IMG/VR virus record: IMGVR_UViG_3300013132_000018
Coordinates: 103,648 to 167,647 of that record
Direction: 5' to 3' (one strand)
Source: a virus
DNA: 64,000 bases
Shown here: positions 12,397-52,295 of the stretch, piece by piece
Position numbering within the stretch: position 1 is the stretch's first letter
Layout: every line of letters begins with the position of its first letter
Program-made: the position numbers and the translations under genes
The notes under the pieces: model-generated
Database searches by the model: none
What the model saw: only the letters and a program-made list of their open reading frames with translations
Told to the model about the DNA's origin: nothing

Positions 12397-15300
12397 ATGA
12401 TCACTTCATACTCGAAGCCGCAGTTGACCGTTCGCCAGTTGCTCGACGTGGTGCTGCCCGTCACGCCCTCAGTGCGACACGCCTGCGTGCTCGGGCCGCA
12501 GTTCGACCTTCGCCGGGTGACCAACGCGGACGAGCGCGCCGCCATGAAGGGTGTGCTGTTCGCCGAGAACACCGACCCGGATCCCGCCGCGCGGCAGTTG
12601 GTCGCCTACGAGAACCTCCGCCCCGGCCCCATCGTGGACCGTGCGTTCACCAAGCTCTACGCCGAAAACCTGGAGGGTCAGCTTTGGCAGGCCAGTTCTC
12701 CGGCCGTCAACGACCAGGTGAGCCAGGCGAAGTATGAGTTCCTCATCACCTCGCTGGCCACGCCCAACCAGGTGCGGGTCGTCCGGCGCGGAGCGCGCAT
12801 CGTGGTCTTCTACGACGCCTACAGCGGCCAGATCAACGGTGCGGCAGTCATCTTCTCTGGCAGCGGTTATCCGCTGGCCAGCACGGTGGACGTGCCTGTG
12901 GCGGGCGGTTCTGGTTCAGGCGGCGTGCTGCGGCTCACCACCGACGCCAACGGCGCGGTGATCCTGGCCGTGGTGATTTCGCCAGGTGCCGGCTACACCG
13001 CCAACATCGTTTTCGACGCTCCGGTGGCGACCGGCGCCAACGTCGGCGTGGATGACGCCACCCTGATCCCCGAGCTTCGCGGCCGACAGATCAAAGCCGG
13101 CGACGTGGTCTATACCACTTTCGGCGATGCCACGGTGCGTCGCACGGTGCGCCGGGTGGACAAGGAGAACACGGTGGCCAAGGCGGGTTCCGCCGCCGGC
13201 AGCGATGATGGCAAGATGGTGGCGTCGCCGCTCAACCCGATCCAGAGCGAAGCGGCCAGCTTCAACAACCCGTCGGCCCCGCCCAACTGGGACGTCCTGC
13301 TCAGCCACAACTCGGTCCTCAAGGCGACCATCAGCAATGCCGGCAGCGGCTACACCACGGCTCCGAACGTGGCGCTCTCGGCCCCGCCCAGCATCGGCGG
13401 CGCGCTCCTCTGGGCCAATGCCCAGGCGCTGGCCTCGGCCACTGTCGTGGACGGCAAAGTGACCGCCATCTCCATCGACCATCCTGGCGCGGGCTATGTG
13501 GACGGTGGCGTGGTGACGCTGGTCATCAGCAATGCTGGCAGCGGATACCAGGCGGTGCCGACCATCACCCTCGCGGCACCTCCTTCGGGCGGTATCCAGG
13601 CCAAGGCCGAGGCGATCGTCTCCGGCGGCCAGGTGACCGGCTACCGCATCATTGAACCCGGCCAGGGCTACACCAGCGCGCCGGCGGTCTCATTCTCGGG
13701 CGGCACGCCCACTGCGGCGGCCGTGGCCACCTCCACCATCGCGTCGGCTCCCACCATCACCTTCTCTGGCGGCGGTGGCAGCAATGCGGCGGCCACCGTG
13801 GTTCTGCGCTCGCTGGCCTCCGACTGGAACGGTCTCAAGGAAGGCGCGATCTACGCGGGCCAGTATGGCGAGCGTTACGCCATCACCGTCGTCAAGGGCG
13901 GGTCGGATGACCAGGTGCCCCGGGTGCGTGTTCGCAGCCAGTCCGGCGGCTTCCTCGCCGACAACGTCGTGGTGCGCCGGCTCGGTAACGCCTACGTGCT
14001 CAACCACGCCGTCTTTGGCGGACTGGTGCCTGAGCTTCGCTACATCGGTCTGGCCAGCACGGTTCCCCCGCTCAACCTGGGTGACCAGTTCAGCTTCGTG
14101 GTGTTCGGCAAATACAAGCCGCTCGACCTCATCGCTGGCGGTTCGGTTGCGTCCTACAATGTTCTCAGCGGCGGCACGGGTTACACGACTGGCAACACCA
14201 CTATCGAGATCAGCACGCCCCCTTCGGGTGGTGTGCAGGCCACAGCCACTGCCCAGATTTCTGGCGGTGAGTTGACGGGCTGCGTAATCGACAATCCCGG
14301 GTCCGGTTACGTTTATCCGCCGGTGGTCAAGGTCAAGTCAACCCAGGTGAGCGGGACTGCCTCGGCTTCGTCCGAGGTGACCGGTTCGGAAGCGGCCAAG
14401 GCGTTCGACGGCGATCTGAACACCCTATGGTCTTCAACGGCCGATCCTTCCTCGGTCAGCGGCGGCGAGTGGGTCAAATGGGTGTTCGGCAGCGGCAAAC
14501 AAATCACCGGTTACGCCATCGCGTTCCCGGTCAACAACCGGCCGCTGAACTTCGTCCTGGAAGGTTCCAACAACGGCACGACCTGGGACGTGCTCGACAT
14601 GGTCAGCGGAAACACCAGCATGGCCACGGCCATCTCCCGCCAGTTCAGCAACCAGACCAGCTACACGCAGCTTCGGGTGCGCGCGACGGCGATGAACAGC
14701 GAGGGGCTCGGCGTGGCGGTGCCGTTCAAGATCCGCTCCTTCGACCTCAGCACCGCCAACGGCGACGCGCTCCAGGTTGGCTACGGCGCCATCGTCACCG
14801 CCAACCTCGCCACGCCGGCGGCCAGCCGCAGCATCACGCTGGTGGCTTCGGGCCTCTACCGCGGCACGGCGGACACCCGCTACCAGGTGACGGTCGTCTC
14901 CTCCGGTAACAACGCGGTGCCCACACCCTACAACGGGGCGGTGGTGCGCATCACCGACTCGGCGGGCATTGATGCCCTGCAGGAGATCGCGGTCACCCAG
15001 GGGGTCGAGTATCCGCTCGGCACGCTGGGTCTGCGCTTCATCTTCCCAGCCCGGGATGCGAGCGTGCACACCCATCAGGTTGGCCTCCGCAAGGGTGACG
15101 TGTTCTACGTGCACGCCACTTCACAGAAAGCCAACGGCGCGGCCAGCATTCTGGTGCTCAACGGCCAGGCGGCGGACACGATGGAGTGGTCCGACTTCGA
15201 CCTGCCCATCAACAAGCTCAACATCGACGGCCGGGCGCTCTTCACCGGGGAACTGGTGGCCAAGCGCAACTCGGCGCCGCTGCTGGCCTACGAGGCGGGC

Positions 15301-16776
15301 ACGGAGTCGGTGGGCGGCATTCTGGTGCGCGACACCCTCAAGCTCAAGTTCACCGACCGCGATGCCGACTACCAGTGGGTGCCGGCCAAGGCATCGCTGG
15401 CGGGACGGCTCTTCGCGCATTACCGCGCGCTCGTGCCGGCGACCAGCGCCGACACGTTCAAGCTCTACGGCTCGGAGGCTGACCTCATCACGACCTTCGG
15501 CAAGAACGACGCCGACAATCCGGTCTGCCACGGTGCGGTCATCGCGTTCCGCGCGGCGCAGACGAAGCCCGTCTATGTGGGCCGGCTGGCCAGCGACGAC
15601 CGCGCCGGCTACACGGCCATGCTCCGCAAGGCCGAGCGCGTGCGCGGCATCTATGCCGTGGCGCTCATGACGTCCGACTACACGATCCAGCAGGATCTCC
15701 GGACGCACTGCAACAAGGTGTCCACCGAGAAGGGCAAGCTCTGGCGCCGTGGCTACATTGGCACCGCCAATCCCGGTTCCTACCCGCTGCTCGCGCTGCA
15801 GGCGGATGGTGCCCTCTACGAGGCGGTCATCCTGGCCAATGGCTCTGGCAACGTCCGGGTGGTTTCGCCGGACGCGAAGTTCCTGACGTTGGGCGTGAAG
15901 CCGGGCGATCAGTTCCGCACCAACTACCGGGCGAACGAGTGGAACGACACGGTGTTCGACAGCTACGTGGTGGCCAACGTCCTCGAAGAGGATGAGCTTC
16001 TGCTGGAGACAGGTCCGGGCGCCGCGGTCAATCCGGCGGTGAAGTTTGAACTCTGGCGGCCGGACAACGGCCTTTCCCAGGCCGAGTTCATTGGCGGCCG
16101 GTCGGAGCAGTTCCTCGACCGCCGCGTCAACAACCTGTGGGTGGACAGCCCGCTCCGTCGCAATGTCGCCGGCAGCCTGCTCTCCCAGCCGCTCTGCTTC
16201 CTTGCTGCCGAGGCAGCGGGTCTCCGCTCGGTGCTCCTGCCGCAGCAGGGGCTGACCCGCGTGCAGTTCGAGCACTCGGTCACGGCCGCCCCGCTGATGT
16301 TCTCCAAATACTCCGACGAGGAACTGGATGTGGCCGCCAGCCGCGGCACGTTCATCGTCACGCAGGAGTTGGAGGACGGGCCGGTGTTCGTCCGTCACCA
16401 GCTTACGACGGATTCCAACCGCGGCATCCTCTACTACGAGGACTCTGTGGGTGCGAACCTCGACGACATGTCCTACAAGGTCGTGGACATCCTGGACCGC
16501 TACGTCGGCCGCCGCAACGCGGTGCAGGCCGTGGTCGAGGAGATCATGACCGACATGCGCAACCTGTTGGATTCGTCCAAGGACACCCCGTCGGCGGTGC
16601 CGGATGCGGGTCCGCAGATCGTGGACTACGCCAACCTCAAGGTCGCCATCGACCCTGTGCTCAAGGACACCATCAACGTGTCCGTGGACATCGACTTCCC
16701 GCTCCCGCTCAACCATCTGCGGGTCACCCTGCGCGCCGCGCGCTCGCTGGGAGCGGAGAACACTGCAGCCGTCTGA
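12397..16776 (+). CDS. Giant tail sheath protein with GxGY repeats and discoidin domain
   Basis: A 1459-residue protein, about twice to three times the usual sheath length. Residues about 950-1459 form the sheath core: RRNVAGSLLSQPL, STDSNRG-type strands and a typical C-terminus (YVGRRNAVQAVVEEIMTDMRN, then DTINVSVDIDFPLPLNHLRVTL). Residues about 150-640 carry at least eight glycine-rich modules with GSGYxxxP, GAGY or GQGY. Residues about 650-790 form an F5/8 type C (discoidin) domain: AKAFDGDLNTLWSS, WVKWVFG, ITGYAIAFP, FVLEGSNNGTTWDVLD, FSNQTSYTQLRVRATA. The inserts should sit on the outside of the tail, where they could bind glycans or other surfaces. The next gene is the tube protein, as usual. 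Confidence 0.85.
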   Translation: MITSYSKPQLTVRQLLDVVLPVTPSVRHACVLGPQFDLRRVTNADERAAMKGVLFAENTDPDPAARQLVAYENLRPGPIVDRAFTKLYAENLEGQLWQASSPAVNDQVSQAKYEFLITSLATPNQVRVVRRGARIVVFYDAYSGQINGAAVIFSGSGYPLASTVDVPVAGGSGSGGVLRLTTDANGAVILAVVISPGAGYTANIVFDAPVATGANVGVDDATLIPELRGRQIKAGDVVYTTFGDATVRRTVRRVDKENTVAKAGSAAGSDDGKMVASPLNPIQSEAASFNNPSAPPNWDVLLSHNSVLKATISNAGSGYTTAPNVALSAPPSIGGALLWANAQALASATVVDGKVTAISIDHPGAGYVDGGVVTLVISNAGSGYQAVPTITLAAPPSGGIQAKAEAIVSGGQVTGYRIIEPGQGYTSAPAVSFSGGTPTAAAVATSTIASAPTITFSGGGGSNAAATVVLRSLASDWNGLKEGAIYAGQYGERYAITVVKGGSDDQVPRVRVRSQSGGFLADNVVVRRLGNAYVLNHAVFGGLVPELRYIGLASTVPPLNLGDQFSFVVFGKYKPLDLIAGGSVASYNVLSGGTGYTTGNTTIEISTPPSGGVQATATAQISGGELTGCVIDNPGSGYVYPPVVKVKSTQVSGTASASSEVTGSEAAKAFDGDLNTLWSSTADPSSVSGGEWVKWVFGSGKQITGYAIAFPVNNRPLNFVLEGSNNGTTWDVLDMVSGNTSMATAISRQFSNQTSYTQLRVRATAMNSEGLGVAVPFKIRSFDLSTANGDALQVGYGAIVTANLATPAASRSITLVASGLYRGTADTRYQVTVVSSGNNAVPTPYNGAVVRITDSAGIDALQEIAVTQGVEYPLGTLGLRFIFPARDASVHTHQVGLRKGDVFYVHATSQKANGAASILVLNGQAADTMEWSDFDLPINKLNIDGRALFTGELVAKRNSAPLLAYEAGTESVGGILVRDTLKLKFTDRDADYQWVPAKASLAGRLFAHYRALVPATSADTFKLYGSEADLITTFGKNDADNPVCHGAVIAFRAAQTKPVYVGRLASDDRAGYTAMLRKAERVRGIYAVALMTSDYTIQQDLRTHCNKVSTEKGKLWRRGYIGTANPGSYPLLALQADGALYEAVILANGSGNVRVVSPDAKFLTLGVKPGDQFRTNYRANEWNDTVFDSYVVANVLEEDELLLETGPGAAVNPAVKFELWRPDNGLSQAEFIGGRSEQFLDRRVNNLWVDSPLRRNVAGSLLSQPLCFLAAEAAGLRSVLLPQQGLTRVQFEHSVTAAPLMFSKYSDEELDVAASRGTFIVTQELEDGPVFVRHQLTTDSNRGILYYEDSVGANLDDMSYKVVDILDRYVGRRNAVQAVVEEIMTDMRNLLDSSKDTPSAVPDAGPQIVDYANLKVAIDPVLKDTINVSVDIDFPLPLNHLRVTLRAARSLGAENTAAV
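12850..14340 (+). repeat. GxGY glycine-rich protein repeats inside sheath gene
   Basis: Successive modules of about 45-50 codons with the pattern (V/I)xNxGSGYxxxPxV, then PPSGGxxAxA and an xxGGxVTxxxI strand. GxGY cores lie near nt 12862, 12987, 13340, 13492, 13541, 13662, 14176 and 14299. The DNA copies are diverged, so this is an old protein repeat and not a recent tandem duplication. Confidence 0.75.
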
Positions 16777-17441: not shown

Positions 17442-19448
17442 ATGAACTCCAAAACCCGGCAGAGCAACATCCGGCCTGGCGTGGTCATCGGCACACGGCT
17501 GCCGGGGCAGGTGGTCGAGGTGAAGATGGAGGGCGATGGCGAGGTGGTGCGCTGCGTGTGGGCGGCGGGCATCATGTGTGGCCTGCTGGGCTTCCGGCTG
17601 ACCCACATTCCCACCATCAACACCCGCGTGCTGGTCCTGCATTCCGGCATGGAGCACGACTTCATCATCGGCACACTGCCCGCCTTGATCGTGGATGGTG
17701 TCCAGCCTGATCGACGGGTGACTGGCAATGGCGCCGCCGACTACACGCGCACCGAACCCTTCACCGCCCGGCTGGACCCAGAGGAGGCCGGCTATCTGGA
17801 CCATCGTCCGCCGGTGGATCTGGTTGAAGGCGAGATTGACCTGTCCAACCTGCAGGGTGTCGGGCTGACGCTGCTGCGCCGGCTGGTGTCGCTGCAGGCC
17901 GGCGACCTGGCCCGGGTGGAGTGTCACCTGCACGACGACATGGTCCGGATCATCAGCGACGCCTTCAAGCACTACACCGCGTTCGGGGAGCACAGCATCA
18001 CCAACGACGGCGGCCGTCTTAATGTGGTCTGGCATGGCACCAGCCGGGAGCACGAGGCGATGGGCCGGATGCGGGAGAACGATCCGCTGGTGAATCTCAA
18101 GGACGGTGACACCGTGGACCAGACGGATGTGGATCCGGAAAAGGATGATGGTCGCTGGCGCTTCAGCCAGTATGTCGGCTGGCTGGGCAATTTCGTGAAC
18201 ATGTTTGTCACGGACCCGGTGAACCAGATCGGCCGGCTGGCTGAGGACGCGTTCCGCTCGGGCAAGGCGCGCGTGCATGTGGGCAACGACGGCGCCATCC
18301 TTCTGCAGTCGGTCAGCGACATCGTGCTGGAGAAGGTGGTCCGCATTCCGGTGCCCGTGCCGCTGCGGCGCGAGGACAGCGGTGACGGCAACCGCACGGA
18401 CGACCCGGCGGCCAACTACGAGTTCCTCAAGGCCTGGCAGCCCTCCGACCAGAACAACGTGTTCGAGATGGCCTTCCAGTTGCGCGAGTATGCCCGCTGG
18501 CTGTCCGCCACCCACAGCCTCGCCCGGTTCCACCAGTTGAACCGGGAGTGGAAGGTGCCCAGCGAATCACAGACTCCGGCCCCGTCGCTGGGCGCCGATG
18601 AGGTGGACCGCAAGCAGGCCAACCTGCCCACGGCGTCCGCCAGCGTGGCGGCATGGCGGCTGGCCTACTCGGCCATCCGGATCTTCCGTGATGGCTCCAT
18701 CCAGACTGTGGATGCCTACGGCAACAGCACAACAACCACCAAGACGGGTGTTCTATTCGACACGCCCCGGGACTTCACCTTCGTGGCGGGAGGCTCGTTC
18801 AATGTCCTGGCCGCGCGCGACATCAACCTGGTGGCGCAGAAGGATGTGGGCATCACCGCCGCCAAGGGGGCGGTGCGGGTGAAGGCGGAGACGGCCCTGC
18901 AGATGTTCGTCAAAACTGGCCACGCCGTCATCGAGACCACCGGCACCTACCTGCTCAAGCTGATCGGCGCGTTCAAGATCGGCACGCGCATGGACGTGTC
19001 GAAGGAAGGTGACATGATCCTGCGCGGCACGCTGCACGCCGAGACCGCCTACGTTCAGGGCGATGTCATCGCGCGCTACATGGCCCATGCGACGCCGCTG
19101 GCTGGACCGTGGAACCACTACAACCATGTCGGCATCTCTGGCCCGCCGCCTATGCCAGTTGGACAGCCGGTCCAGGACGAGTTCAAGTTTCCCGCCAGCC
19201 ACCCCGGAGAGGCGCTTTACGAACCCTACGGCCAGCAGATGCTTCGGCGCGGTGAACTGGGCGGAACTACAGCCTGGAACCTGGCGGACAACGCCGTGGA
19301 AGGAAAGGGTGCACCCTGGCCGGGCAGCAATCAATGGAAGCAGGCTGATGGTGGCGACGCCCTCAACACGCCTTCGACCGAAGCGGCACCGGCCGCCAAA
19401 CCTCAACCCTTGACCAGCGCGCCCGTCGTGGTGCGCTCACCTGCATGA
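17442..19448 (+). CDS. Baseplate spike protein (gp5/gpV/VgrG-like)
   Basis: The ATG at 17442 is preferred over a TTG four codons upstream; product 668 residues. Near the N-terminus an OB-fold-like stretch (GTRLPGQVVEVKMEGDGEVVRCVWAAGI) is typical of spike proteins. Residues about 445-560 are runs of short regular strands (FTFVAGGSFNVLAARDINLVAQKDVGITAAKGAVRVKAETALQMFVKTGHAVIETTGTY cut into hydrophobic/polar alternation) that suit an intertwined beta-helix spike. The C-terminus is Pro/Ala-rich. The gene follows the tube and precedes the chaperone and tape-measure genes. The beta-helix assignment is from the repeat rhythm alone. Confidence 0.6.
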   Translation: MNSKTRQSNIRPGVVIGTRLPGQVVEVKMEGDGEVVRCVWAAGIMCGLLGFRLTHIPTINTRVLVLHSGMEHDFIIGTLPALIVDGVQPDRRVTGNGAADYTRTEPFTARLDPEEAGYLDHRPPVDLVEGEIDLSNLQGVGLTLLRRLVSLQAGDLARVECHLHDDMVRIISDAFKHYTAFGEHSITNDGGRLNVVWHGTSREHEAMGRMRENDPLVNLKDGDTVDQTDVDPEKDDGRWRFSQYVGWLGNFVNMFVTDPVNQIGRLAEDAFRSGKARVHVGNDGAILLQSVSDIVLEKVVRIPVPVPLRREDSGDGNRTDDPAANYEFLKAWQPSDQNNVFEMAFQLREYARWLSATHSLARFHQLNREWKVPSESQTPAPSLGADEVDRKQANLPTASASVAAWRLAYSAIRIFRDGSIQTVDAYGNSTTTTKTGVLFDTPRDFTFVAGGSFNVLAARDINLVAQKDVGITAAKGAVRVKAETALQMFVKTGHAVIETTGTYLLKLIGAFKIGTRMDVSKEGDMILRGTLHAETAYVQGDVIARYMAHATPLAGPWNHYNHVGISGPPPMPVGQPVQDEFKFPASHPGEALYEPYGQQMLRRGELGGTTAWNLADNAVEGKGAPWPGSNQWKQADGGDALNTPSTEAAPAAKPQPLTSAPVVVRSPA

Positions 19449-41573: not shown

Positions 41574-42656
41574 ATGACTACGATTGAGCTTTTGGCCGCT
41601 GAACTCTCCCTCTACGGGGTGACTGGACCGGCTGGTCCGCAAGGCCCACAGGGCGATACCGGCCCACAAGGCCCGGCAGGTGCGGACGGTTCAGCGGGGG
41701 CTGACGGGGCCAACGGTGCGGACGGTGCACCGGGTGCGGACGGGGCCAACGGTGCGGACGGTGCTGATGGAGCCACGGGACCGCAAGGCCCACAGGGCGA
41801 TACCGGCCCACAAGGCCCGGCAGGTTCCACAGGGGCCAGCGGTGACAACATTTACGTTGCCTACGCCAGCGACGACAGCGGGACGGACTTCACCACCACC
41901 TTCGACGCCAACCTCGATTACATCGCTATCCTCAAGACTGGCACCTGGATCGAGACTCCGCAGGCATCGGATTTCACGGGCTTGTGGAAAAACTACAAGG
42001 GTGCCACGGGTTCGACTGGATCTGCGGGTGCCGATGGTGCTTCGGCGTATGCCTACATCGCCTACGCCAGTGACGACAGCGGAACGGACTTCACCACCAC
42101 TTTTGACGCCAACCTCAACTACGTTGCCATCGTCACCAGCACGACGGCATTGACGCCGGTGGTCGGAGACTTTGCTGGACTATGGAAGAATTACAAAGGT
42201 GCTACGGGGGCTACCGGCGCAGCCGGGGCCGATGGCGCGGCGGGTGCGGACGGGGCCAACGGTGCGGACGGTGCTGATGGAGCCACGGGACCGCAAGGCC
42301 CGGCAGGTTCCACAGGGGCCAGCGGTGACAACATTTACGTTGCCTACGCCAGCGACGACAGCGGGACGGACTTCACCACCACCTTCGACGCCAACCTCGA
42401 CTACATTGCAGTGCTGAAGACTGGCACTTGGATTGAGACCCCACAGGCTTCTGATTTCACAGGTTTGTGGAAAAACTACAAGGGTGCCACGGGTTCGACT
42501 GGATCTGCGGGAGCAGCAGGCGCAGATGGCGATGCCGACGCCTATACGCCCACCCCTCCGTCCGACTGGGACGGCACCGCACCCACCACGATTGGCGAGG
42601 CGTTGGACCGTCTGGCTGCGCTGGTAAAAACACTCAACGGCGGCACTGGGCCGTAA
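41574..42656 (+). CDS. Collagen-like tail fibre with three repeated modules
   Basis: A 360-residue protein. Gly-X-Y tracts (GPQGPQGDTGPQGPAGADG and GADGANGADGADGA) alternate with three copies of a globular module: NIYVAYASDDSGTDFTTTF, ANLDYIAILKTGTWIETPQ, DFTGLWKNYKG at nt about 41845-42003, 42045-42201 and 42327-42485. The middle copy is diverged. The C-terminus (DGTAPTTIGEALDRLAALVKTLNGG) is a helix that may seed trimers. Gly-X-Y tracts form triple helices in other phage fibres. The gene contains long exact DNA repeats. Confidence 0.75.
   Translation: MTTIELLAAELSLYGVTGPAGPQGPQGDTGPQGPAGADGSAGADGANGADGAPGADGANGADGADGATGPQGPQGDTGPQGPAGSTGASGDNIYVAYASDDSGTDFTTTFDANLDYIAILKTGTWIETPQASDFTGLWKNYKGATGSTGSAGADGASAYAYIAYASDDSGTDFTTTFDANLNYVAIVTSTTALTPVVGDFAGLWKNYKGATGATGAAGADGAAGADGANGADGADGATGPQGPAGSTGASGDNIYVAYASDDSGTDFTTTFDANLDYIAVLKTGTWIETPQASDFTGLWKNYKGATGSTGSAGAAGADGDADAYTPTPPSDWDGTAPTTIGEALDRLAALVKTLNGGTGP
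41811..41917 (+). repeat. 107-bp exact direct repeat, copy 1
   Basis: Identical to 42294-42400, 483 bp downstream, within the collagen-like fibre gene. It covers the end of a Gly-X-Y tract and the first half of a globular module. A further 61-bp exact match joins 41731-41791 and 42241-42301 with a different offset (510 bp). Confidence 0.9.
42294..42400 (+). repeat. 107-bp exact direct repeat, copy 2
   Basis: Second copy of 41811-41917. The sequence following it codes for nearly the same protein as after copy 1 but with many synonymous changes, then becomes identical again near 42467-42510. Confidence 0.9.
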
Positions 42657-42659
42657 TCT

Positions 42660-42890
42660 ATGCCTGACTTTTCATCCATCTCGTTGATTGGCCCACAGGG
42701 GCCGACCGGAGCCACCGGTGCCCAAGGCCCGGCAGGCGCTACCGGAGCCACCGGTGCCCAAGGCCCGGCAGGCGCTACCGGAGCCACCGGTGCCCAAGGC
42801 CCGGCAGGCGCTACCGGAGCCACCGGTCCGGCTGGCCCATCCGGCTTAGATCCTGCGGAACTGTTGTCCCACATGATGATGCGCGCCTGA
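42660..42890 (+). CDS. Short collagen-like protein
   Basis: A 76-residue protein, almost entirely Gly-X-Y triplets. It begins [16 protein letters not shown], continues with three exact copies of [12 protein letters not shown] and ends [17 protein letters not shown], which may be a small cap or trimer-forming end. It lies between the larger collagen-like fibre and another fibre gene, spaced by 3 bp on each side. It may assemble as a separate short fibre or connector. Confidence 0.6.
42705..42827 (+). repeat. 36-bp tandem repeat coding collagen triplets
   Basis: Three perfect 36-bp copies at 42705-42740, 42741-42776 and 42777-42812, followed by a 15-bp partial copy to 42827. Each codes for four Gly-X-Y triplets. 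Perfect identity implies recent expansion or ongoing slippage. Confidence 0.95.
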
Positions 42891-44655: not shown

Positions 44656-47148
44656 TTAGCCGATCATGGGCGTGAGCGCCACAGGCTTGGCCGGCATATT
44701 CACCTTGCCGTAGAAGATCTCCACCAGGCTGTTGAACACCCCGAGACTGAATTCGACCCGATCCTTGTCCAGCATCCGGGCCGTAGCGTCTAGTCGCTGC
44801 AATTCATCCCGGAGGATTTCCGCGACGGCCTGCCGACGGTCCACCTTCATCACCACGGTCTGGTTCGACAGGTTGAACTCCACCATCATGGGTAGCCGGT
44901 CGGACGGCACCTTGTAGAGCAAGGCGTTGAACGCCGGCACTGGGCTCATTGTCCGCACCACAAACTCGCCCGGCGCACCAACCTGAACCGCCAGGTCGCG
45001 TCCCCGCTGGATGAGCCGTTCGACAGTCGTCTGCTCGGGCTCTTCGATGTGGACAGGTCGCCCTTCCTGAATCAAGCCCATGGCGAGCCGGGAAGTCAGG
45101 TGTCGGGCGGCCGAGGAAAGCTCGGCATACTCATGCTGGCGCAACGGCTCGCCGACAGAGAAGCCCGTGCTCGACTGCACCAGCACTGGGTCACGCAAGT
45201 TCAGCGCTTCGGGCGTGTCGCTGGTGACCAGCACCGGCAGACCATCCAGGTGCATGGAATCCAGACGCGGGCCACGGCTGCGCTGGTTGTTGCCCACATG
45301 CACCGGCTGCATCTGACCGAAGGCGTTGAACACGGCTTCCAGCGCCTGCCGGGTAGGCTGGTCGGACTGGGTCATCACCAAGGGGGATGGCAGGGCTAAA
45401 AAAGAGCGCTCCATCAAGGCCAGCACAATGGCCAGCAGCGTGTTGGTTTCTGGCCGGTCACAGCGCCAGGTGTGGCGCCAGTTGAATGCCCTGGCCGCGT
45501 AGTGCCGGGACAGCATGTCGGAAAACGGATACAGCAGCTTCTCCGTCGGTTTGATCTGGGTGGCCTCAGCGATCCAGGTTGGGGTGACGAAACGCGTCCG
45601 GTGCTGGGTCCAGCCCAGCGTCATGATGCCAGTCACGTTGCGACCGCATTTGGACGCCTGCACGCTGATGACCGTCGGCAGGCGTGCACGCATGGTGGTG
45701 TCCGTGACCACCGGAAGTTCAGTCGTCTGGCCGTGGCGTCGGACCGCCAGTATGGCCTGGTTGAGGACTTCCTGCGGCTTGTTGGCGTCCTTGTTGAGGA
45801 TCTGAAATGGAAACGCCTGCCGGTTAATGCGGACTTGCCCGTAGTGGGCGAACACGGTGTCGCTGAACCAGACGTTCTTTTCCACCGTGATGGTGAAGTT
45901 GGTGAAGAGCGACTCCGCCCGACCTTCGCGCCGGCCGACGTAACCGTCAGGTGTTTCCAACACCCGCATGGCGCCCAGAACGAGTTCGCTCATCCTGGAT
46001 ACTCCCTCCTGCACCCGGCGCATGACCGGCATGGGCGTCCCGTTGCGCTCCAGATGGGCGATGAGCTTGTCCACCGTAGCGGAGTCGTGGCTCAGGTGCA
46101 GCAGGAAGTCCTGCATCTCAGGCGACCGTTCCTGGCCGGTCTTGATCCAATACTCGATCCGCTGGATGACGAAGTCCGTCCAGGTAGTAACGACGGGCAT
46201 CCTGGCGTCCATCAGTCCGGTGTGCCGGCTGGCGATGTAGAATTCGTCGAACGCGTTTCGAGCCATCGCCAGCAAGGCAGTGTCATCGCCTTCTCCGTGC
46301 ATGCCAATGGCCGCCGGCAGGCGCATGCCCGCTGCGTGCCGGGCCGAGTTGAGCCAGACCTGCACGGTGCCCAGGTTGAGGCAGGCGCCGCAGGAGATCT
46401 GCAGCAGGACGTCCCGCCAGTCGGTGTAACAGTGCACGCGCGGCTGCTGGGGCGGGGCGGACAAGGCGCCGAAGAACGCGTGCGATACGTCCTCCATCCA
46501 GACACGACTCACATCATCGGGGTGGCGGACCGGCACAAGCTCAACGGCAGCGATCTGGCTGAACCGGCTGTAGGCTGGCAGCACCAGGAACTGCGCTACC
46601 GGGTCCAGGGTGACGTGCTCCAGGCCGGGCAGCCGGGACAGGTCTTCACCGGTGGCGCCGAACAGCAGACCGGCGGTCAACCGAGGATGCGCCTGCAGGC
46701 GGCGCAGTAGCATCCTGACTTCCGCATACTTCTGGGTGTCCCAGGCGAACCGGGCAAACTGCTGGTCCCACTGCCGCCGCACATCCCGGCGCTGCTTCAG
46801 GTCTGAAGCCAGGAATCCGGCCGTCTGTTGCAGCATGGCCGGCTCGGAAGCCAGGTGGGTGTAGTGCTGGATGACATGTCGCACCGCCTGCTGCTCGCCG
46901 CCCAACCGCCAGGCCAGGAAGTCGAACACGTCGCCGCAGCGGAAGTCGTCCACGATGTCCAGGCAGACGAACTCCGTGTCGGTCAGCCAGATGCGGGAAT
47001 CAGCACGGGAAGGATGCTGCAGCCAGCAACCGCGCGCTTCCTGTTGTGGTCGCAGCCCCAGGTCCCTGGCCACGCGGAACGGCGTGAGGTCCCGGAAAAG
47101 CTGTTGAATTTTGACCTGTGATTGGTAGGATTCAGCCATGGACTTCAT
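44656..47148 (-). CDS. Large leftward protein with primase-like zinc-binding N-terminus
   Basis: An 830-residue protein on the opposite strand (827 if started at the ATG ending at 47139). Residues 41-84 resemble a primase CHC2 zinc domain in degenerate form: Cys41-x3-His45, then EFVCLDI (Cys62) and FRCGDVFDFLAWRLGGEQQAVRHVIQHY (Cys71), where the GDVFDF phrase and following helix fit primases. A later region (VHCYTDWRDVLLQISCGACLNLGTVQVWLNSA) could be a worn TOPRIM domain. No Walker A motif is seen. The gene ends 5 bp from the convergent fibre gene, and its start overlaps the divergent gene at 47138. Primase-like identity is tentative. Confidence 0.5.
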   Translation of the reverse strand: MKSMAESYQSQVKIQQLFRDLTPFRVARDLGLRPQQEARGCWLQHPSRADSRIWLTDTEFVCLDIVDDFRCGDVFDFLAWRLGGEQQAVRHVIQHYTHLASEPAMLQQTAGFLASDLKQRRDVRRQWDQQFARFAWDTQKYAEVRMLLRRLQAHPRLTAGLLFGATGEDLSRLPGLEHVTLDPVAQFLVLPAYSRFSQIAAVELVPVRHPDDVSRVWMEDVSHAFFGALSAPPQQPRVHCYTDWRDVLLQISCGACLNLGTVQVWLNSARHAAGMRLPAAIGMHGEGDDTALLAMARNAFDEFYIASRHTGLMDARMPVVTTWTDFVIQRIEYWIKTGQERSPEMQDFLLHLSHDSATVDKLIAHLERNGTPMPVMRRVQEGVSRMSELVLGAMRVLETPDGYVGRREGRAESLFTNFTITVEKNVWFSDTVFAHYGQVRINRQAFPFQILNKDANKPQEVLNQAILAVRRHGQTTELPVVTDTTMRARLPTVISVQASKCGRNVTGIMTLGWTQHRTRFVTPTWIAEATQIKPTEKLLYPFSDMLSRHYAARAFNWRHTWRCDRPETNTLLAIVLALMERSFLALPSPLVMTQSDQPTRQALEAVFNAFGQMQPVHVGNNQRSRGPRLDSMHLDGLPVLVTSDTPEALNLRDPVLVQSSTGFSVGEPLRQHEYAELSSAARHLTSRLAMGLIQEGRPVHIEEPEQTTVERLIQRGRDLAVQVGAPGEFVVRTMSPVPAFNALLYKVPSDRLPMMVEFNLSNQTVVMKVDRRQAVAEILRDELQRLDATARMLDKDRVEFSLGVFNSLVEIFYGKVNMPAKPVALTPMIG

Positions 47149-48223
47149 CCGTGATCGCTCGGGTCGGTGTCTGTTTCAGGTGCACAATCTGGGTGTCGCG
47201 CCCGACTACGTCAAGCAGAGCGCCATCAACGACGAGTGTGTGGCCGATCTGTTGCCGGGTCAATTCGCGGATCCCGACCGCCGGCTCTTTCCGTTGGACA
47301 CCGCCGGCCACGTCTATCTGAGCCACGCCTACGTCAAGTATGCCGGGGTCAGTGACGCCAGGATTCTTCGCCGGATCAAGAAGGCCGCCGACCTGTTGAA
47401 CATCGCTGACGACCTGGTGAAGCTGGACTCGGCCTTGGCGGCGGGGCAGGAGAAGCAGGCTACCACCAACAAGCCGCGCTTTGCCCTCCATGTCGATTTC
47501 GGCACCGGTGACCAGACGGCGAAGCACATCCTGGTAAAGCAGGGTGGCGTGCATGGGTTCTACCCGCTCAACAATCACGACCAGGTGCTCGCGTCGGCGC
47601 GCGATCTGGTCAACCAGTCGGCGGCACTGCCGGACGCGAATTTCGTCCTGGCCTGCCGCGAGGTGGTTAAGGCGGCCGATGACCACCACATTCCCCGGCA
47701 GGCTCTTCCGCCTGCCGTGCTCAGCCGTGGACAGCACCGCGCGCCGGATCTGGCGTTTCTGCGGGAGCAGGCCGAGAAGCGGTCTGCCTCGACCAACGAC
47801 CCCACCTACCGAGAACTGGTGGCCGCCTTTGAGCGCGAAGGCGATCCGGCCGGCTGGGACAAGTGGGCTTCGCTCTGGGAGCAGGCCGACACGCTCAACA
47901 ACTACGTCGGCGACAATCTGAGTTTCAACGCATGGGCAATTTTCAATTCCGGACTTCCCGTGGCCGCGGTGGAGAAAGAAGCCGCCGCCTGGCTGATGGT
48001 GGCCGACGTGCCCGTCCCCGTGACGGCCGTGGCCAGCCTCGACGCGACCGCCGCCCGTTCCAGGCTGGACAAGGTGACCGCCGAACAGGTGACCGCCATC
48101 AAGACCGCCGCCGCTTCTGGTCTCGTCTCCGACCTGCAGGACAAGATTCTGCAGTTGCCCAGCGCCGCCCAGGAATGGGTCGTGCGGCTGGCCTTGCAGA
48201 CGCCCCAGGTGGCTGCGGCATGA
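47138..48223 (+). CDS. Unknown protein divergent from primase-like gene
   Basis: A 361-residue protein. Its ATG at 47138 lies in CCATGG, where the complementary strand carries an ATG of the leftward gene. AGGA seven bases upstream is a good ribosome-binding site. The sequence is mixed alpha/beta with a helical second half (LREQAEKRSASTNDPTYRELVAAFEREGDPAGWDKWASLWEQADTL) and an Ala-rich C-terminus. No known motif. It overlaps the next gene by ATGA. Confidence 0.6.
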   Translation: MDFIRDRSGRCLFQVHNLGVAPDYVKQSAINDECVADLLPGQFADPDRRLFPLDTAGHVYLSHAYVKYAGVSDARILRRIKKAADLLNIADDLVKLDSALAAGQEKQATTNKPRFALHVDFGTGDQTAKHILVKQGGVHGFYPLNNHDQVLASARDLVNQSAALPDANFVLACREVVKAADDHHIPRQALPPAVLSRGQHRAPDLAFLREQAEKRSASTNDPTYRELVAAFEREGDPAGWDKWASLWEQADTLNNYVGDNLSFNAWAIFNSGLPVAAVEKEAAAWLMVADVPVPVTAVASLDATAARSRLDKVTAEQVTAIKTAAASGLVSDLQDKILQLPSAAQEWVVRLALQTPQVAAA

Positions 48224-48807
48224 CAGTTCCCCCGATCTCTCTCGACAAGCTGACCGTGGCCCGCCTGATCGGCGACATCGCCACGCTGGGCACCACGCTG
48301 CATGTGATCTGCCTGACCGCCTACGGCGAGGAGATCTACACCCTGGACATCCTCGAACTGCTCGCCAGGCTGCGGGAGGACTTCGGGGTGGAACTGCCGG
48401 AGGACAATGAGAACAAGCTGCAAGCCATGCTGACGGCCGTGAGCACGGAGGCGTTCCATCAGGACGTGGAAGCCTTCAACACCATCTGCAACACCCTGAG
48501 CAGCGGCGACCCAGGACTGGAAGAACTGGATGACGTCACCCTGCCGGAGATGATGTGGGCCATGTTCGAGGTGGAGGTCAACCGGGGGCCGGATGAGTTC
48601 AGCCCGTCGGTGATGAGCCGGATTGAGCAGATCATGGCCGCCGAGATGGACCCGGAATCCGACCCCAACCCTTACCGCTACGCCAGCGGCTTCGTGGAAG
48701 ACCTGCATGCCCTGCTGGTGGACCAGATGGTGGCCCTGGGGGTTCCTGCCAGTAGCGTCCCCAGCCTGCCGGCGCCAGCGCAATGGGCACCCGAGCCTAC
48801 CCTGTAA
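48220..48807 (+). CDS. Unknown acidic protein
   Basis: The ATG at 48220 (ATGA overlap) gives 195 residues. It is acidic and helical (LDILELLARLREDFGVELPEDNENKLQAMLTAVSTEAFHQDVEAF, LPEMMWAMFEVEVNRGPDEFSPSVMSRIEQIMAAEMDPESDPNP) with a Pro-rich end. No motif recognised. It is the last gene before the structured non-coding region, so its transcript would read into it. Confidence 0.55.
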   Translation: MTVPPISLDKLTVARLIGDIATLGTTLHVICLTAYGEEIYTLDILELLARLREDFGVELPEDNENKLQAMLTAVSTEAFHQDVEAFNTICNTLSSGDPGLEELDDVTLPEMMWAMFEVEVNRGPDEFSPSVMSRIEQIMAAEMDPESDPNPYRYASGFVEDLHALLVDQMVALGVPASSVPSLPAPAQWAPEPTL

Positions 48808-49155
48808 TGGAGGGCGGTTTTGGGGTATAAGATACTGGTAGAGACTTTAGGTTTTGTTGGTTTTGGGCGTCCTTGGACTATCTCGCGTTTCCCCTAAACA
48901 CTGGCCCTTCCCCTGGCCGCTGTTCACGCCTGGTCCTTGGACGCCTGCTTTCCCGATCGCCCCTGACCTGAAACAATGGTCGTGAAACTCTGAACTCAGC
49001 AGGCGCCATGCTACGGGTATGGTGATAGCTGGGACTAAGGGGCAAGGTGGTTGGGATATTTTGCCGAAAGGCAATGGCGGCCAGCTAACGTAGCCGGCCT
49101 TGCCCCTGGTCCCGCGTCATGTCGGGACCAGGGGCGCATCATTAAAGGATCGACT
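48808..49155 (+). ncRNA. Candidate structured RNA/regulatory region of 348 bp
   Basis: The only long non-coding stretch. Visible elements: (a) arms 48866-48878 and 48933-48945 (GGCGTCCTTGGAC with GTCCTTGGACGCC) that pair over 7 and 4 bp around a TT/TT mismatch; (b) TTGCC-GAAA-GGCAA at 49061-49074, a perfect GNRA tetraloop hairpin; (c) a hairpin with one mismatch at 49079-49099; (d) a long stem 49031-49047 with 49098-49113 (5 and 10 bp around a TA/G internal loop) enclosing b and c; (e) a perfect 13-bp hairpin 49102-49114 with 49123-49135 that competes with d. No T run follows e, so it is not a simple terminator. The ParB-like gene starts 20 bp after. It could be a riboregulator, a stable RNA, or a replication or packaging site. 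Confidence 0.45.
49145..49149 (+). promoter_or_regulatory. Ribosome-binding site deciding a TTG start
   Basis: AAAGGA ends at 49149, six to seven bases before the TTG at 49156. There is no ATG or GTG in frame nearby, and in-frame sequence further upstream falls in the structured region, so this site fixes the start of the ParB-like protein. Confidence 0.6.
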
Positions 49156-49845
49156 TTGCTTTATCTGTCCAATGACTCGCTGTGGTATGACACCCGTCCC
49201 GATGACTACGGGCGGGATGCTGATTGGGAAGTTGCGGCCAAATCCATTGAATCGAACCATGTGCCCAGTGACCCGGCGCACTGGGAGAAGTTCCTGACCT
49301 CCATCCGAGAGAACGGCGTCAAGAAGCCCATCACGCTGCAGCGCCGGAACGGCGGCTGGCGTGTGACCCAAGGACACCATCGGGTTTGGGGTGCGAACAA
49401 GACGCATCGGTTTTGGGTGCCCGTTCGGCTGTCTTCGGCGGCAGACTTGGCGCGCGAGAAAGCGCTGCTTCAGAACGGCCAGCCAAAGTGGGTGCGGGTG
49501 TATGACAACGAAGGTGAATCGGCTGACCGATACACTGTGTGCTTTACAGGTCGTTATCGCACCCCGCTGCCGCCAGATCAGCATGCCTACTACGGTCGCT
49601 ACACCTGGTATCAATACCTGGGCATGAGCGCTAACCCATTCAACCCGCAAGGCATTGGAATGCACGCCGAGAACCGAAAACAGATCGACGTGAACAAATC
49701 AGGCTTCGCGCCAGCTATCGGACGGCGCTGCCATCTCGGCAAGCGCATTCCGTTCGACGAATTGCCGTTCGACTGCCAGCGGCTGGCGTGGCGTGACTAC
49801 AGCATGCTGTGGATGGTCAGAGTGCCGAGAAAACTTCTGGGATGA
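49156..49845 (+). CDS. ParB-like domain protein with unknown C-terminal domain
   Basis: Started at TTG 49156, 229 residues. Residues 25-92 have the ParB/sulfiredoxin-like pattern: AHWEKFLTSIRENGVKKPITLQRR, then WRVTQGHHRVWGANKTHRFWVPV, where GHHRVWGA matches the nucleotide-binding GxHR box. Residues about 120-229 form another domain with GRYTWYQYLGMSANPFNPQGIGMHAEN and HLGKRIPFDELPFDCQRLAWRDY, which I do not recognise as a named family. ParB-like domains in phages act in DNA binding, nuclease or CTP-dependent roles. The gene lies directly after the structured region and heads a three-gene cluster. Confidence 0.6.
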   Translation: MLYLSNDSLWYDTRPDDYGRDADWEVAAKSIESNHVPSDPAHWEKFLTSIRENGVKKPITLQRRNGGWRVTQGHHRVWGANKTHRFWVPVRLSSAADLAREKALLQNGQPKWVRVYDNEGESADRYTVCFTGRYRTPLPPDQHAYYGRYTWYQYLGMSANPFNPQGIGMHAENRKQIDVNKSGFAPAIGRRCHLGKRIPFDELPFDCQRLAWRDYSMLWMVRVPRKLLG

Positions 49846-50132
49846 GCCAACGACACGTAATTCTGTCCGGCATAGGCTACCGGGTTGAGGTGGCGGACAA
49901 CCAGGTGCTCTTCACCGAAGAGATCTGCATCAGCGGGTGCCATTGCCGGTTTGCGCTGGAGCGTCCTCCGGAGATCAACAACAGTCCCGGTATCTGGTGG
50001 TTGGTCCATCTTGACTCAACCTCTGGCCGGATACCGGCCTCGCACATTGCCAAGGCGTTGGAGTATTGCGAGCGGGAGTTTGGCGCCAGTTTCAAACCCT
50101 ACAGTGGCGGGCTTCACTGCAACGTAACATGA
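49842..50132 (+). CDS. Small unknown protein
   Basis: The ATG at 49842 (ATGA overlap) gives 96 residues. Alpha/beta with a Cys-rich short motif (EEICISGCHCRF). Later WWLVHLDSTSGRIPASHIAKALEYCEREFGASF. It is coupled to both neighbours by ATGA. No family recognised. Confidence 0.5.
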   Translation: MSQRHVILSGIGYRVEVADNQVLFTEEICISGCHCRFALERPPEINNSPGIWWLVHLDSTSGRIPASHIAKALEYCEREFGASFKPYSGGLHCNVT

Positions 50133-50488
50133 GCGAAACGACAACCCTAGCCGATGGTCTGCAGATTGTGTCTCCGCGTGAGCCTGTCGGGCATGTGGAT
50201 GCAACACCTGACGACGACTACGTGCTGCGCATCCTTGGCGCGCACCTGGACATGCAGAACTGCACTGTGACGGCCGATCCGCCCAACGTGCTGGCCGACT
50301 ACATGAACTACTGCACCGAGCGGCGCCGTGTGCTGCTGGCGCATGCCATGGCCGTGCTGGTGAACCATGCCGACGCGGAGCGCGTCAAGCTGGCGCCCCA
50401 TCTGGCCACAGTGGAGGAGAAATGGAAGGCTACGCTGACGAAGGTCAGCGGGAAAACGCCCGAGGCATCTGCGCCCCCACCGACGTGA
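50129..50488 (+). CDS. Small unknown protein convergent with terminase
   Basis: The ATG at 50129 gives 119 residues. The middle is helical (NVLADYMNYCTERRRVLLAHAMAVLVNHADAERVKLAPHLATVEEKW) and the C-terminus Pro-rich. Its last 44 bp overlap the 3' end of the convergent terminase gene. Small helical proteins beside the large terminase gene are sometimes small terminase subunits, but no DNA-binding motif is visible, so I leave it unassigned. Confidence 0.5.
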   Translation: MSETTTLADGLQIVSPREPVGHVDATPDDDYVLRILGAHLDMQNCTVTADPPNVLADYMNYCTERRRVLLAHAMAVLVNHADAERVKLAPHLATVEEKWKATLTKVSGKTPEASAPPPT

Positions 50489-52295
50489 TGTGCGCCAGCG
50501 GGCTCTTGAGCGCGCTCTCCACCCGGATCCGGGTGGAGAGGTCGGCGAACATCGGCTCGCCCAGCAGTATCTTGGTGAGCATGAACCCGTAGTTGAGCGC
50601 CATCAGCGTGTCGTTGGGTTTGCTGGCGCTGCCGCGGTAGATGAACGTCGAGGCACCCGTGCCGGACTTCCCGCCCGGCGCGCGGTAGATGTTCAGGCAG
50701 TCCGTCAGCATGGCCTGGGCAAGCTCCCAGGAGTAGCAGCGGAACCGGCCTTTACGCAGCGCCTCGAAGGTGAGCGACAGCGACTCGGTCTTGTTGAGCG
50801 ACCACTGGTTGTAGAGGTGCTCCTTGCCCGGTTCGGAGATGAGCGCCGATTCCGGTCCGACGTAGTTGAAGATGAGGTGCCGCTCCAGTGGCAGCTTCTG
50901 ACGGATGCGGCTGTTATAGACCGCGCCGACACCGAAGTCCGTGGCGATGGCAAAGCCGCCCATGCGCTGATGGTGGGCGATGATCGTGTCCGAGATGTCG
51001 TCGTAGTCCATGCCCGAATAGCGGCGCATGTGCACGATGTCGATTTGTCCCAGCGGGGAAATGCCCAGCATCACATGCACCGTGGTGCTGACCTTCATGT
51101 TCTCCGCTGGGATGTAATCGCTGCCACCCCAGTCGCAGGCGCTGATGACGAACTGGTAGCCGCCTTTGGCGGCCTTCTGCTCCAGCGCGCCGACATCGTT
51201 GCCCAGCGTGCACAAGGCCTGCAGGTGAGACTTGGTGAGTTCGCGTTCGCCAGTTTCAGTGGCGATGCCAAGAATCTCCTGCAGGAATTTTCGTGAATCC
51301 TGGCTGTGCTTCTTCTCACAGATTTCCGCCCAGCGGAACTGGTTGTAGATAACGGCCGGCACGATCAACTGAGGGATGTGAAAGCCGACTTTCTTCTGCG
51401 CCAGGCGGTCGCCGTAGGCATGGACAAACTGACCATCGAGGATGTTGAGCAGCTTGCCACACTTGACGCAGGAAGGACCGGCCGGCTGGATCATGTCCAT
51501 CACCTTGAAGTCAGGGAGCGGGATGTTGTCAGTGCGACAGCCGTCGCATTTGGTGACCCAGACACCCTGTGACGAGGCATCCCACTTGGCCTCCAACATG
51601 GTGTCGGTGGTGATGCTCGTTCCGGCGTAGATCTTGATCGGCATCTCCGATGCGCTCTGCACCTGCTCCACCTCAAGCTCAAGATCTGGGTCGAAGTCCT
51701 GCACCTCGTCGTAGAGCAGTTCGTCCGTGCTCTTGGAGCGCGCGTTGGCGGCGGTGGACAGGACGTAAATCAGTTCAATGCGGGAACCGCTGGCGAATTC
51801 CTTCAGATGCAGGTTGTTGCGCAGCGAGTGGTCGGGCTTGTAGTGGATGTGCGCACGGTCCACATCCCGGAGACGATTGGAGTAGGTGTTGAGATACTGC
51901 CGCCGTGGGCAGAGGTAAAGCGAAGCGAAATTGGGCAGCAGCCGGGCCATCATGATCTGCCTGGCAGCCAGTGAACTGCTCTTCGCGATCTGACGGCTGC
52001 CCTTGAAAACGCTGAAACCGCCAACCTGGATGTTGAACATCTGGAAGGCGTAGGGGTAGTTGATGAAACTTAACGGCTTGTCCTTCGGATACCGGGGGAA
52101 ATAGAGTGGGGCCAGAAATGCCAGGTTGAACTTGCAGAATTGGATGAGGTCCCACTGTGCATCCGACAGCGGACCCGCCGCCGAAGGCGTCGCGTCCAGC
52201 TTGATCCGCAGATCCTCCACCAACTTGACCTTTCTCTGCAGGCCGTGGCGAAACTCGCCATCAGTCCTGGCTGTGCGTTCAAGATCGAAATACAT
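50445..52295 (-). CDS. Terminase large subunit
   Basis: A 616-residue leftward protein. The ATPase half has the Walker A-type loop GSRQIAKSS (residues 99-107), where the usual Gly before Lys is Ala, and a Walker B strand LLYDE (193-197). Cys250/253 and Cys276/279 (CDGC, CVKC) suggest a zinc ribbon between the domains. The nuclease half has the three acidic positions: SACDWGG (Asp388), ATDFGVG (Asp453) and SKPNDTLMALNYG (Asp562). It packages genomic DNA into proheads through the portal. It is read against the flow of the structural genes. Its start codon is 5 bp from the divergent gene at 52301. Confidence 0.85.
   Translation of the reverse strand: MYFDLERTARTDGEFRHGLQRKVKLVEDLRIKLDATPSAAGPLSDAQWDLIQFCKFNLAFLAPLYFPRYPKDKPLSFINYPYAFQMFNIQVGGFSVFKGSRQIAKSSSLAARQIMMARLLPNFASLYLCPRRQYLNTYSNRLRDVDRAHIHYKPDHSLRNNLHLKEFASGSRIELIYVLSTAANARSKSTDELLYDEVQDFDPDLELEVEQVQSASEMPIKIYAGTSITTDTMLEAKWDASSQGVWVTKCDGCRTDNIPLPDFKVMDMIQPAGPSCVKCGKLLNILDGQFVHAYGDRLAQKKVGFHIPQLIVPAVIYNQFRWAEICEKKHSQDSRKFLQEILGIATETGERELTKSHLQALCTLGNDVGALEQKAAKGGYQFVISACDWGGSDYIPAENMKVSTTVHVMLGISPLGQIDIVHMRRYSGMDYDDISDTIIAHHQRMGGFAIATDFGVGAVYNSRIRQKLPLERHLIFNYVGPESALISEPGKEHLYNQWSLNKTESLSLTFEALRKGRFRCYSWELAQAMLTDCLNIYRAPGGKSGTGASTFIYRGSASKPNDTLMALNYGFMLTKILLGEPMFADLSTRIRVESALKSPLAHITSVGAQMPRAFSR

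Follow-up and report, generated by a model that had tools for sequence, protein, structure and literature searches.

A predicted structured RNA with competing pairings, possibly a leader, in a non-coding gap ahead of a phage gene with a ParB-like domain

A non-coding gap between two plus-strand genes

The window analysed here is a stretch of 64,000 nucleotides, positions 103648-167647 of a 167,647-bp IMG/VR virus record, in which a gap of 348 bp (48808-49155) separates the plus-strand genes 48220-48807 and 49156-49845. The features of the locus are listed in Table 1. The C-terminal part of the protein encoded by the first downstream gene matches phrog_4496 (2e-8), and beyond the two small genes that follow lies the gene for the terminase large subunit, on the opposite strand. 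The neighbouring genes of the gap have no match to a defence family.

Table 1. Features of the 348-bp gap and its flanks (window coordinates)
Feature	Position	Strand	Remarks
Upstream gene	48220-48807	+	195 aa; short, weak, sub-threshold acyl-carrier-like match
Non-coding gap, predicted structured RNA	48808-49155	+	codon score negative; fold z -3 to -4
Possible 25-codon leader ORF	48820-48897	+	TTG start; weak; coding score neutral (+1.7 over 25 codons)
TATAAGATACT, possible -10-like element	48826-48836	+	weak; no -35 found
Closing helix P1, 5' strand GUUGGUUUU	48856-48864	+	pairs with 49146-49154; MFE helix
Domain A	48865-48946	+	long stem 48865-48880/48931-48946, symmetric UU/UU internal loop, inner hairpin
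Domain B	48951-49056	+	11-bp stem 48951-48961/49046-49056 around hairpins 48964-48982 and 48995-49033
Anti-arm GGGACUAAGGGGCAAGG	49031-49047	+	rivals the 13-bp hairpin for 49098-49113
GAAA tetraloop hairpin UUGCC-GAAA-GGCAA	49061-49074	+	sequence and fold
Hairpin GGCC-A-GCUA-ACG-UAGC-C-GGCC	49079-49099	+	fold
Shared strand	49098-49113	+	partner is 49031-49047 or the 3' arm of the 13-bp hairpin
Perfect 13-bp hairpin GCCCCUGGUCCCG / CGGGACCAGGGGC	49102-49135	+	terminator-like; followed by GCAUCAUUAAAG, no U-tract
Shine-Dalgarno AAAGGA	49144-49149	+	AGGA within closing helix P1 in the MFE fold
First downstream gene	49156-49845	+	TTG start; 229 aa; ParB-like N-terminal domain, phrog_1033 1.2e-7
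Two further small genes	49809-50132, 50129-50488	+	without family; probably one transcription unit with the 49156 gene

The gap is non-coding, as the initial annotation had it. Under a codon model trained on long ORFs of this phage, the ORFs of at least 35 codons tested inside it score negative, the gene 49156-49845 scores +36, and a missed gene was rejected. So was an earlier TTG start of the downstream gene at 49051, since the 35-codon extension scores -4.2, whereas the gene's own opening 35 codons score +7.4. The two flanking proteins match unrelated families, so that no interrupted gene is involved. The same annotation had placed the gap in a genome with almost no spacing; this is true of most of the window, yet across the whole 167-kb record nine more gaps longer than 300 bp are called, two of them overlapping structured RNAs (a tmRNA and a group I intron).

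The tmRNA gene (record positions 14908-15325, L004; RF00023, E 4.6e-41) has a long ARAGORN tag, ANSQEDAGLLAEAARIMGNPDAVLAKYEQAVLA, and the phage collection contains no DNA resembling it. The group I intron (L004:12034-12921; RF00028, 67 bits) has a long insert after model position 208, which probably holds an ORF for an HNH-type endonuclease. Two short motifs recur in gaps of the record. The 8-mer AACCATCA, possibly a regulatory motif of the phage, has nine intergenic-gap copies, eight of them on the plus strand (e.g., L004:1866, L005:9799 and 9815, L006:9071, L007:7320 and 8818), where the genome frequency predicts about 0.3 for one gap strand; it is absent from the gap 48808-49155. A CCTTTAGCT-like motif (L007:12172, 15815, 18735-18769; L005:9917) often stands directly 3' of GC-rich hairpins. 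Elsewhere in the window, putative tail-fibre genes contain, at 41624-42836, collagen-like repeats with a 9-nt register and duplicated blocks of 82 to 300 nt. The minus-strand gene 44656-47148, which at its 5' end shares 11 bp with the divergent gene 47138, encodes an 830-aa protein with no match in Pfam, PHROGs, NCBIfam or PADLOC. Within the terminase gene, a perfect 11-bp hairpin, CTCTCCACCCGGATCCGGGTGGAGAG, lies at 50515-50540, about 70 nt before the stop codon.

Stems and predicted fold

The stems that had been pointed out in the gap are all present in the sequence at the positions given: the GAAA tetraloop hairpin; the 13-nt inverted pair 48866-48878/48933-48945 with its TT/TT mismatch (85% complementary), which lies in the long stem of domain A; and the perfect 13-bp hairpin, with arms 49102-49114 and 49123-49135 around an 8-nt loop. 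In the minimum free energy (MFE) fold of the 348-nt RNA, the pair probabilities are 0.95-0.99 for domain A and mostly 0.91-0.99 for domain B, and the closing helix P1 has a mean of 0.80. With 145 nt of coding sequence added, P1 falls below 0.06 and the stem of domain B below 0.15: the fold model is context-sensitive, several stems shifting when coding sequence is included.

The inverted pair contains two identical palindromic 10-mers, GTCC-TT-GGAC, at 48869-48878 and 48933-48942, of which the 167-kb record has four copies, both strands counted. The palindromes might be misread as RNA stems and belong to an element acting at the DNA level (an operator, partition, packaging or origin site), for instance as a protein site, in a neighbourhood that has a gene with a ParB-like domain and the terminase gene nearby. 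We regard this as most improbable: the remaining copies of the 10-mer are unclustered, the gap has no iterons, the GC skew does not turn at the gap, and the excess folding covers domains that lack these palindromes.

Domain A also bears on the possible leader ORF. A strong Shine-Dalgarno-like GGAGG (48809-48813) directly follows the previous stop, 6 nt 5' of the TTG, and the stop codon of the ORF (48895-48897) falls within the domain A stem-loop, so that a ribosome on this ORF could determine how domain A folds and, through this, which pairing forms downstream. Such control by a leader peptide is very unlikely, given the TTG start, the neutral coding score and the lack of a run of a regulatory codon in an ORF of a size, 25 codons, that is expected fairly often by chance.

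Predicted stability against controls

The predicted stability of the gap RNA exceeds that of random segments. The MFE of the 348-nt plus strand, -148.7 kcal/mol, corresponds to a z of -4.0 (100 shuffles) or -3.0 to -3.1 (a second set of shuffles), and 40 random segments of the same length from the window, taken as a control, have a mean z of -0.59 (sd 0.83, minimum -2.3). As yardsticks from the same phage, the tmRNA has a z of -2.6 and the two ends of the group I intron -1.7 and -3.9. The segment 48850-48960, around domain A, reaches -3.9. For 48856-49154, inside the MFE closing helix, the z is -5.1, beyond that of either yardstick, and for 48856-49101, cut before the hairpin, it is -3.0, both with boundaries picked from the fold, which favours these values.

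Part of this stability is explained by the 13-bp hairpin alone, as the whole-gap z of other gaps with perfect hairpins is comparable or even lower (about -3 to -4.5). The hairpin could thus be an ordinary terminator or boundary hairpin between two operons, with the other ~290 bp unselected or a relic, and the other stems and the competing arm the work of chance in a GC-rich gap. This would suit the z of only -1.35 for the full 294 nt without the hairpin, and also the single windows with equal or lower z that occur in some of 60 control segments. It sits poorly with the z of 48856-49101 and with the sliding-window result: over 110-nt windows, the hairpin-less 294 nt has the lowest mean z (-1.94) of 71 segments, a set that includes 60 random controls and 10 other long gaps, albeit by a small margin (best control, -1.89). 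The competing arm, at about the 1% level (see below), and the distance of 294 nt from the gene to be terminated speak against it as well. We consider this terminator-plus-chance explanation unlikely; the gap likely encodes an unusually structured RNA.

Two pairings compete for one strand

The shared strand can pair upstream, as had been proposed, in a perfect 10-bp pair (49038-49047/49098-49107), which is lengthened by GGGAC/GUCCC (49031-49035/49109-49113) across a UA/G bulge. The segment 49096-49115 binds upstream sequence at -35.2 kcal/mol. Binding this strong occurs in 18 of 2000 dinucleotide shuffles and in none of 2959 random genome segments, which gives a p of about 0.01 for a pairing that had been pointed out before testing. 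The mutually exclusive stems of the initial annotation thus both exist, and the upstream arm is better than chance.

We listed the perfect hairpins of at least 9 bp throughout the record and tested other intergenic ones for upstream competitors. Most of the other intergenic perfect hairpins of at least 11 bp have a called gene end at most 50 nt upstream, in the fashion of terminators, and the 13-bp hairpin of the gap lies 294 nt past the previous stop and, as annotated, 20 nt ahead of the next start, TTG 49156. Its upstream competitor beats all shuffles (0/200); none of the other intergenic hairpins tested has a comparable one, except a hairpin at genome position 196, beside a near-duplicate hairpin. 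Near the start of the record, two hairpins, L004:108-140 and L004:196-221, have sequence in common (CTCGTTAATGG... and CATTAACGAG...).

When the anti-arm pairing is enforced, the best fold of the 348-nt RNA has -146.2 instead of -148.7 kcal/mol, a gap of 2.5 kcal/mol, and with the RNA extended to 49170 the two global folds are about 4.5 kcal/mol apart. In the enforced fold, 48958-48964 captures the freed 3' arm 49130-49136, which makes a four-strand exchange. In folding of a growing transcript, the MFE fold has the anti-arm pairing when the 3' end is at 49110, 49120 or 49145, and the hairpin when it is at 49135 or 49155. For transcripts starting at 48808, 48836 or 48842 and ending at 49155-49300, the predicted ensemble is 91-100% in the hairpin state.

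Expression signals

In the MFE fold, P1 ends one base before the start codon of the 49156 gene. The predicted mean unpaired probability of the Shine-Dalgarno sequence is 0.40-0.41 with the hairpin and 0.26-0.32 with the alternative enforced: the alternative state does not raise access to this site, and a translational switch was rejected on this ground. No U-tract follows the 13-bp hairpin, the tail of which is GCATCATTAAAG, and the terminator scan did not call it. The notion that the two exclusive states form a switch is only partly supported: by the competing pairings, but not by the one-sided ensemble, the missing U-tract or the access to the Shine-Dalgarno sequence.

No good sigma-70-type promoter was found in the gap. 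The promoter motif GGGGTATAAGA, which the record has twice, each time in a gap, was rejected, as this is no excess over estimated chance. No terminator was found between the gene 48220-48807 and the structured part, so that the RNA could be intercistronic.

These signals bear on whether the gap might instead encode a free-standing, trans-acting non-coding RNA of the phage, spanning about 48840-49135 on the plus strand, with the 13-bp hairpin as its terminator and a downstream gene that merely follows. The multi-domain fold with a strong 3' hairpin, the TATAAGATACT element just 5' of the structured part, and the tmRNA and group I intron as other structured RNAs of the phage would all be in keeping with such an RNA. 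Yet P1 takes in part of the Shine-Dalgarno sequence and stops short of the start codon, which is more in line with a leader; neither a U-tract after the hairpin nor a -35 element is present, and nothing terminator-like stands between the upstream gene and the RNA. We hold a free RNA to be rather unlikely, although it comes next after the leader reading discussed below.

Searches for relatives and known RNA families

Rfam 15 has no match at gathering level in the window; at E <= 10, a single microRNA match was obtained, below threshold at 20.7 bits (E 0.084; gathering score, 60). Neither ARAGORN nor Rfam detects a tmRNA or tRNA in the gap, there is no tRNA or tmRNA in the window, and no group I or group II intron core of Rfam matches the gap.

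No DNA relatives were found among the phages and plasmids searched. Five neighbouring or nearby proteins, compared with IMG/VR, led only to contig IMGVR_UViG_3300013131_005142 (L001), which is identical over the gap and differs by about 0.1% across the shared stretch. Distant relatives of the terminase occur at 75 loci, mostly with 22-28% identity. A covariance model of 48950-49101, built from the single sequence, found only itself in 1.0 Mb of terminase-relative loci and 25 whole records. In these 25 terminase-relative records phrog_4496 was not found, but the control was also undetected there, so that its absence is not proven. Stem patterns searched in IMG/VR returned six other contigs, none with further likeness to the gap, and an 18-mer search of genome contigs gave eight matches, about as many as a collection of this size should yield by chance, and the covariance model fits none of them. 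In all, DNA, protein, stem-pattern and covariance-model searches yielded no diverged homologue of the gap, and the phage lineage is, by sequence comparison, without close relatives in the collections searched.

Discussion

The gap RNA may be compared with three kinds of known systems. The rplJL leader of Bacillus subtilis (PMC4538822) is an example of terminator-antiterminator exchange, and the expression platforms of riboswitches have been reviewed (PMC10907184). Attenuators and riboswitch platforms have, like the gap RNA, a shared strand whose partner lies either upstream or in a hairpin shortly ahead of the first gene, and structured domains upstream. The two exclusive pairings of 49098-49113, with 49031-49047 or with 49123-49135, are those of an attenuator; an intrinsic terminator with a U-tract is absent at the gap hairpin, and the Shine-Dalgarno site does not alternate between masked and open, as it would in a translational riboswitch. 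The gap RNA further differs from these systems in having no known ligand or protein and no conservation evidence, and in its strongly one-sided equilibrium. The manA and wcaG motifs of cyanophages (PMC2864571) are likewise structured RNAs in potential 5' UTRs of tailed phages, but they are families with many members, whereas the gap RNA comes from one lineage and has no Rfam match. The tmRNA and the group I intron are, like the gap RNA, large structured RNAs in this same phage; unlike the tmRNA, the gap RNA has no RF00023 match, tRNA-like domain or tag ORF, and unlike the intron, no RF00028 match or interrupted gene.

In our judgement, the best single reading is an unclassified structured RNA, about 300 nt long, that is encoded in the gap and acts in cis as an attenuator-like 5' (or intercistronic) leader of the ParB-domain operon 49156-50488; we favour it tentatively, at somewhat less than an even chance, over the free RNA and, third, the terminator with chance stems. 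The analysis shows the gap to be non-coding, the stems to be present, the competing pairings to be better than chance and the predicted stability to be in excess; that the RNA is transcribed, which of its states is ON, termination and any ligand or protein involved are inferred.

In such a leader, domains A and B and the two small hairpins would stand ahead of the expression platform. Once the polymerase has passed 49113, the shared strand could first pair back to the anti-arm. With 49135 transcribed, the 13-bp hairpin could form instead, just ahead of the start codon, and the stem of domain B would then occupy 49046-49056, adjoining the anti-arm. The hairpin state would lower downstream expression via termination, pausing or 3'-end formation; stabilisation of the alternative, by a bound factor, a translating ribosome or the speed of transcription, would raise it. 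That the RNA represents a new class, a large multi-domain phage RNA that senses a signal during infection and uses a hairpin lacking a U-tract to control the ParB-domain operon, appears doubtful at best.

As an RNA predicted in a single lineage cannot be checked by covariation, the leader is to be taken as a good candidate, not as a result. If real, it would add an unclassified structured leader RNA from a lineage without close relatives in the collections searched, and it would offer a concrete, mutable two-state element.
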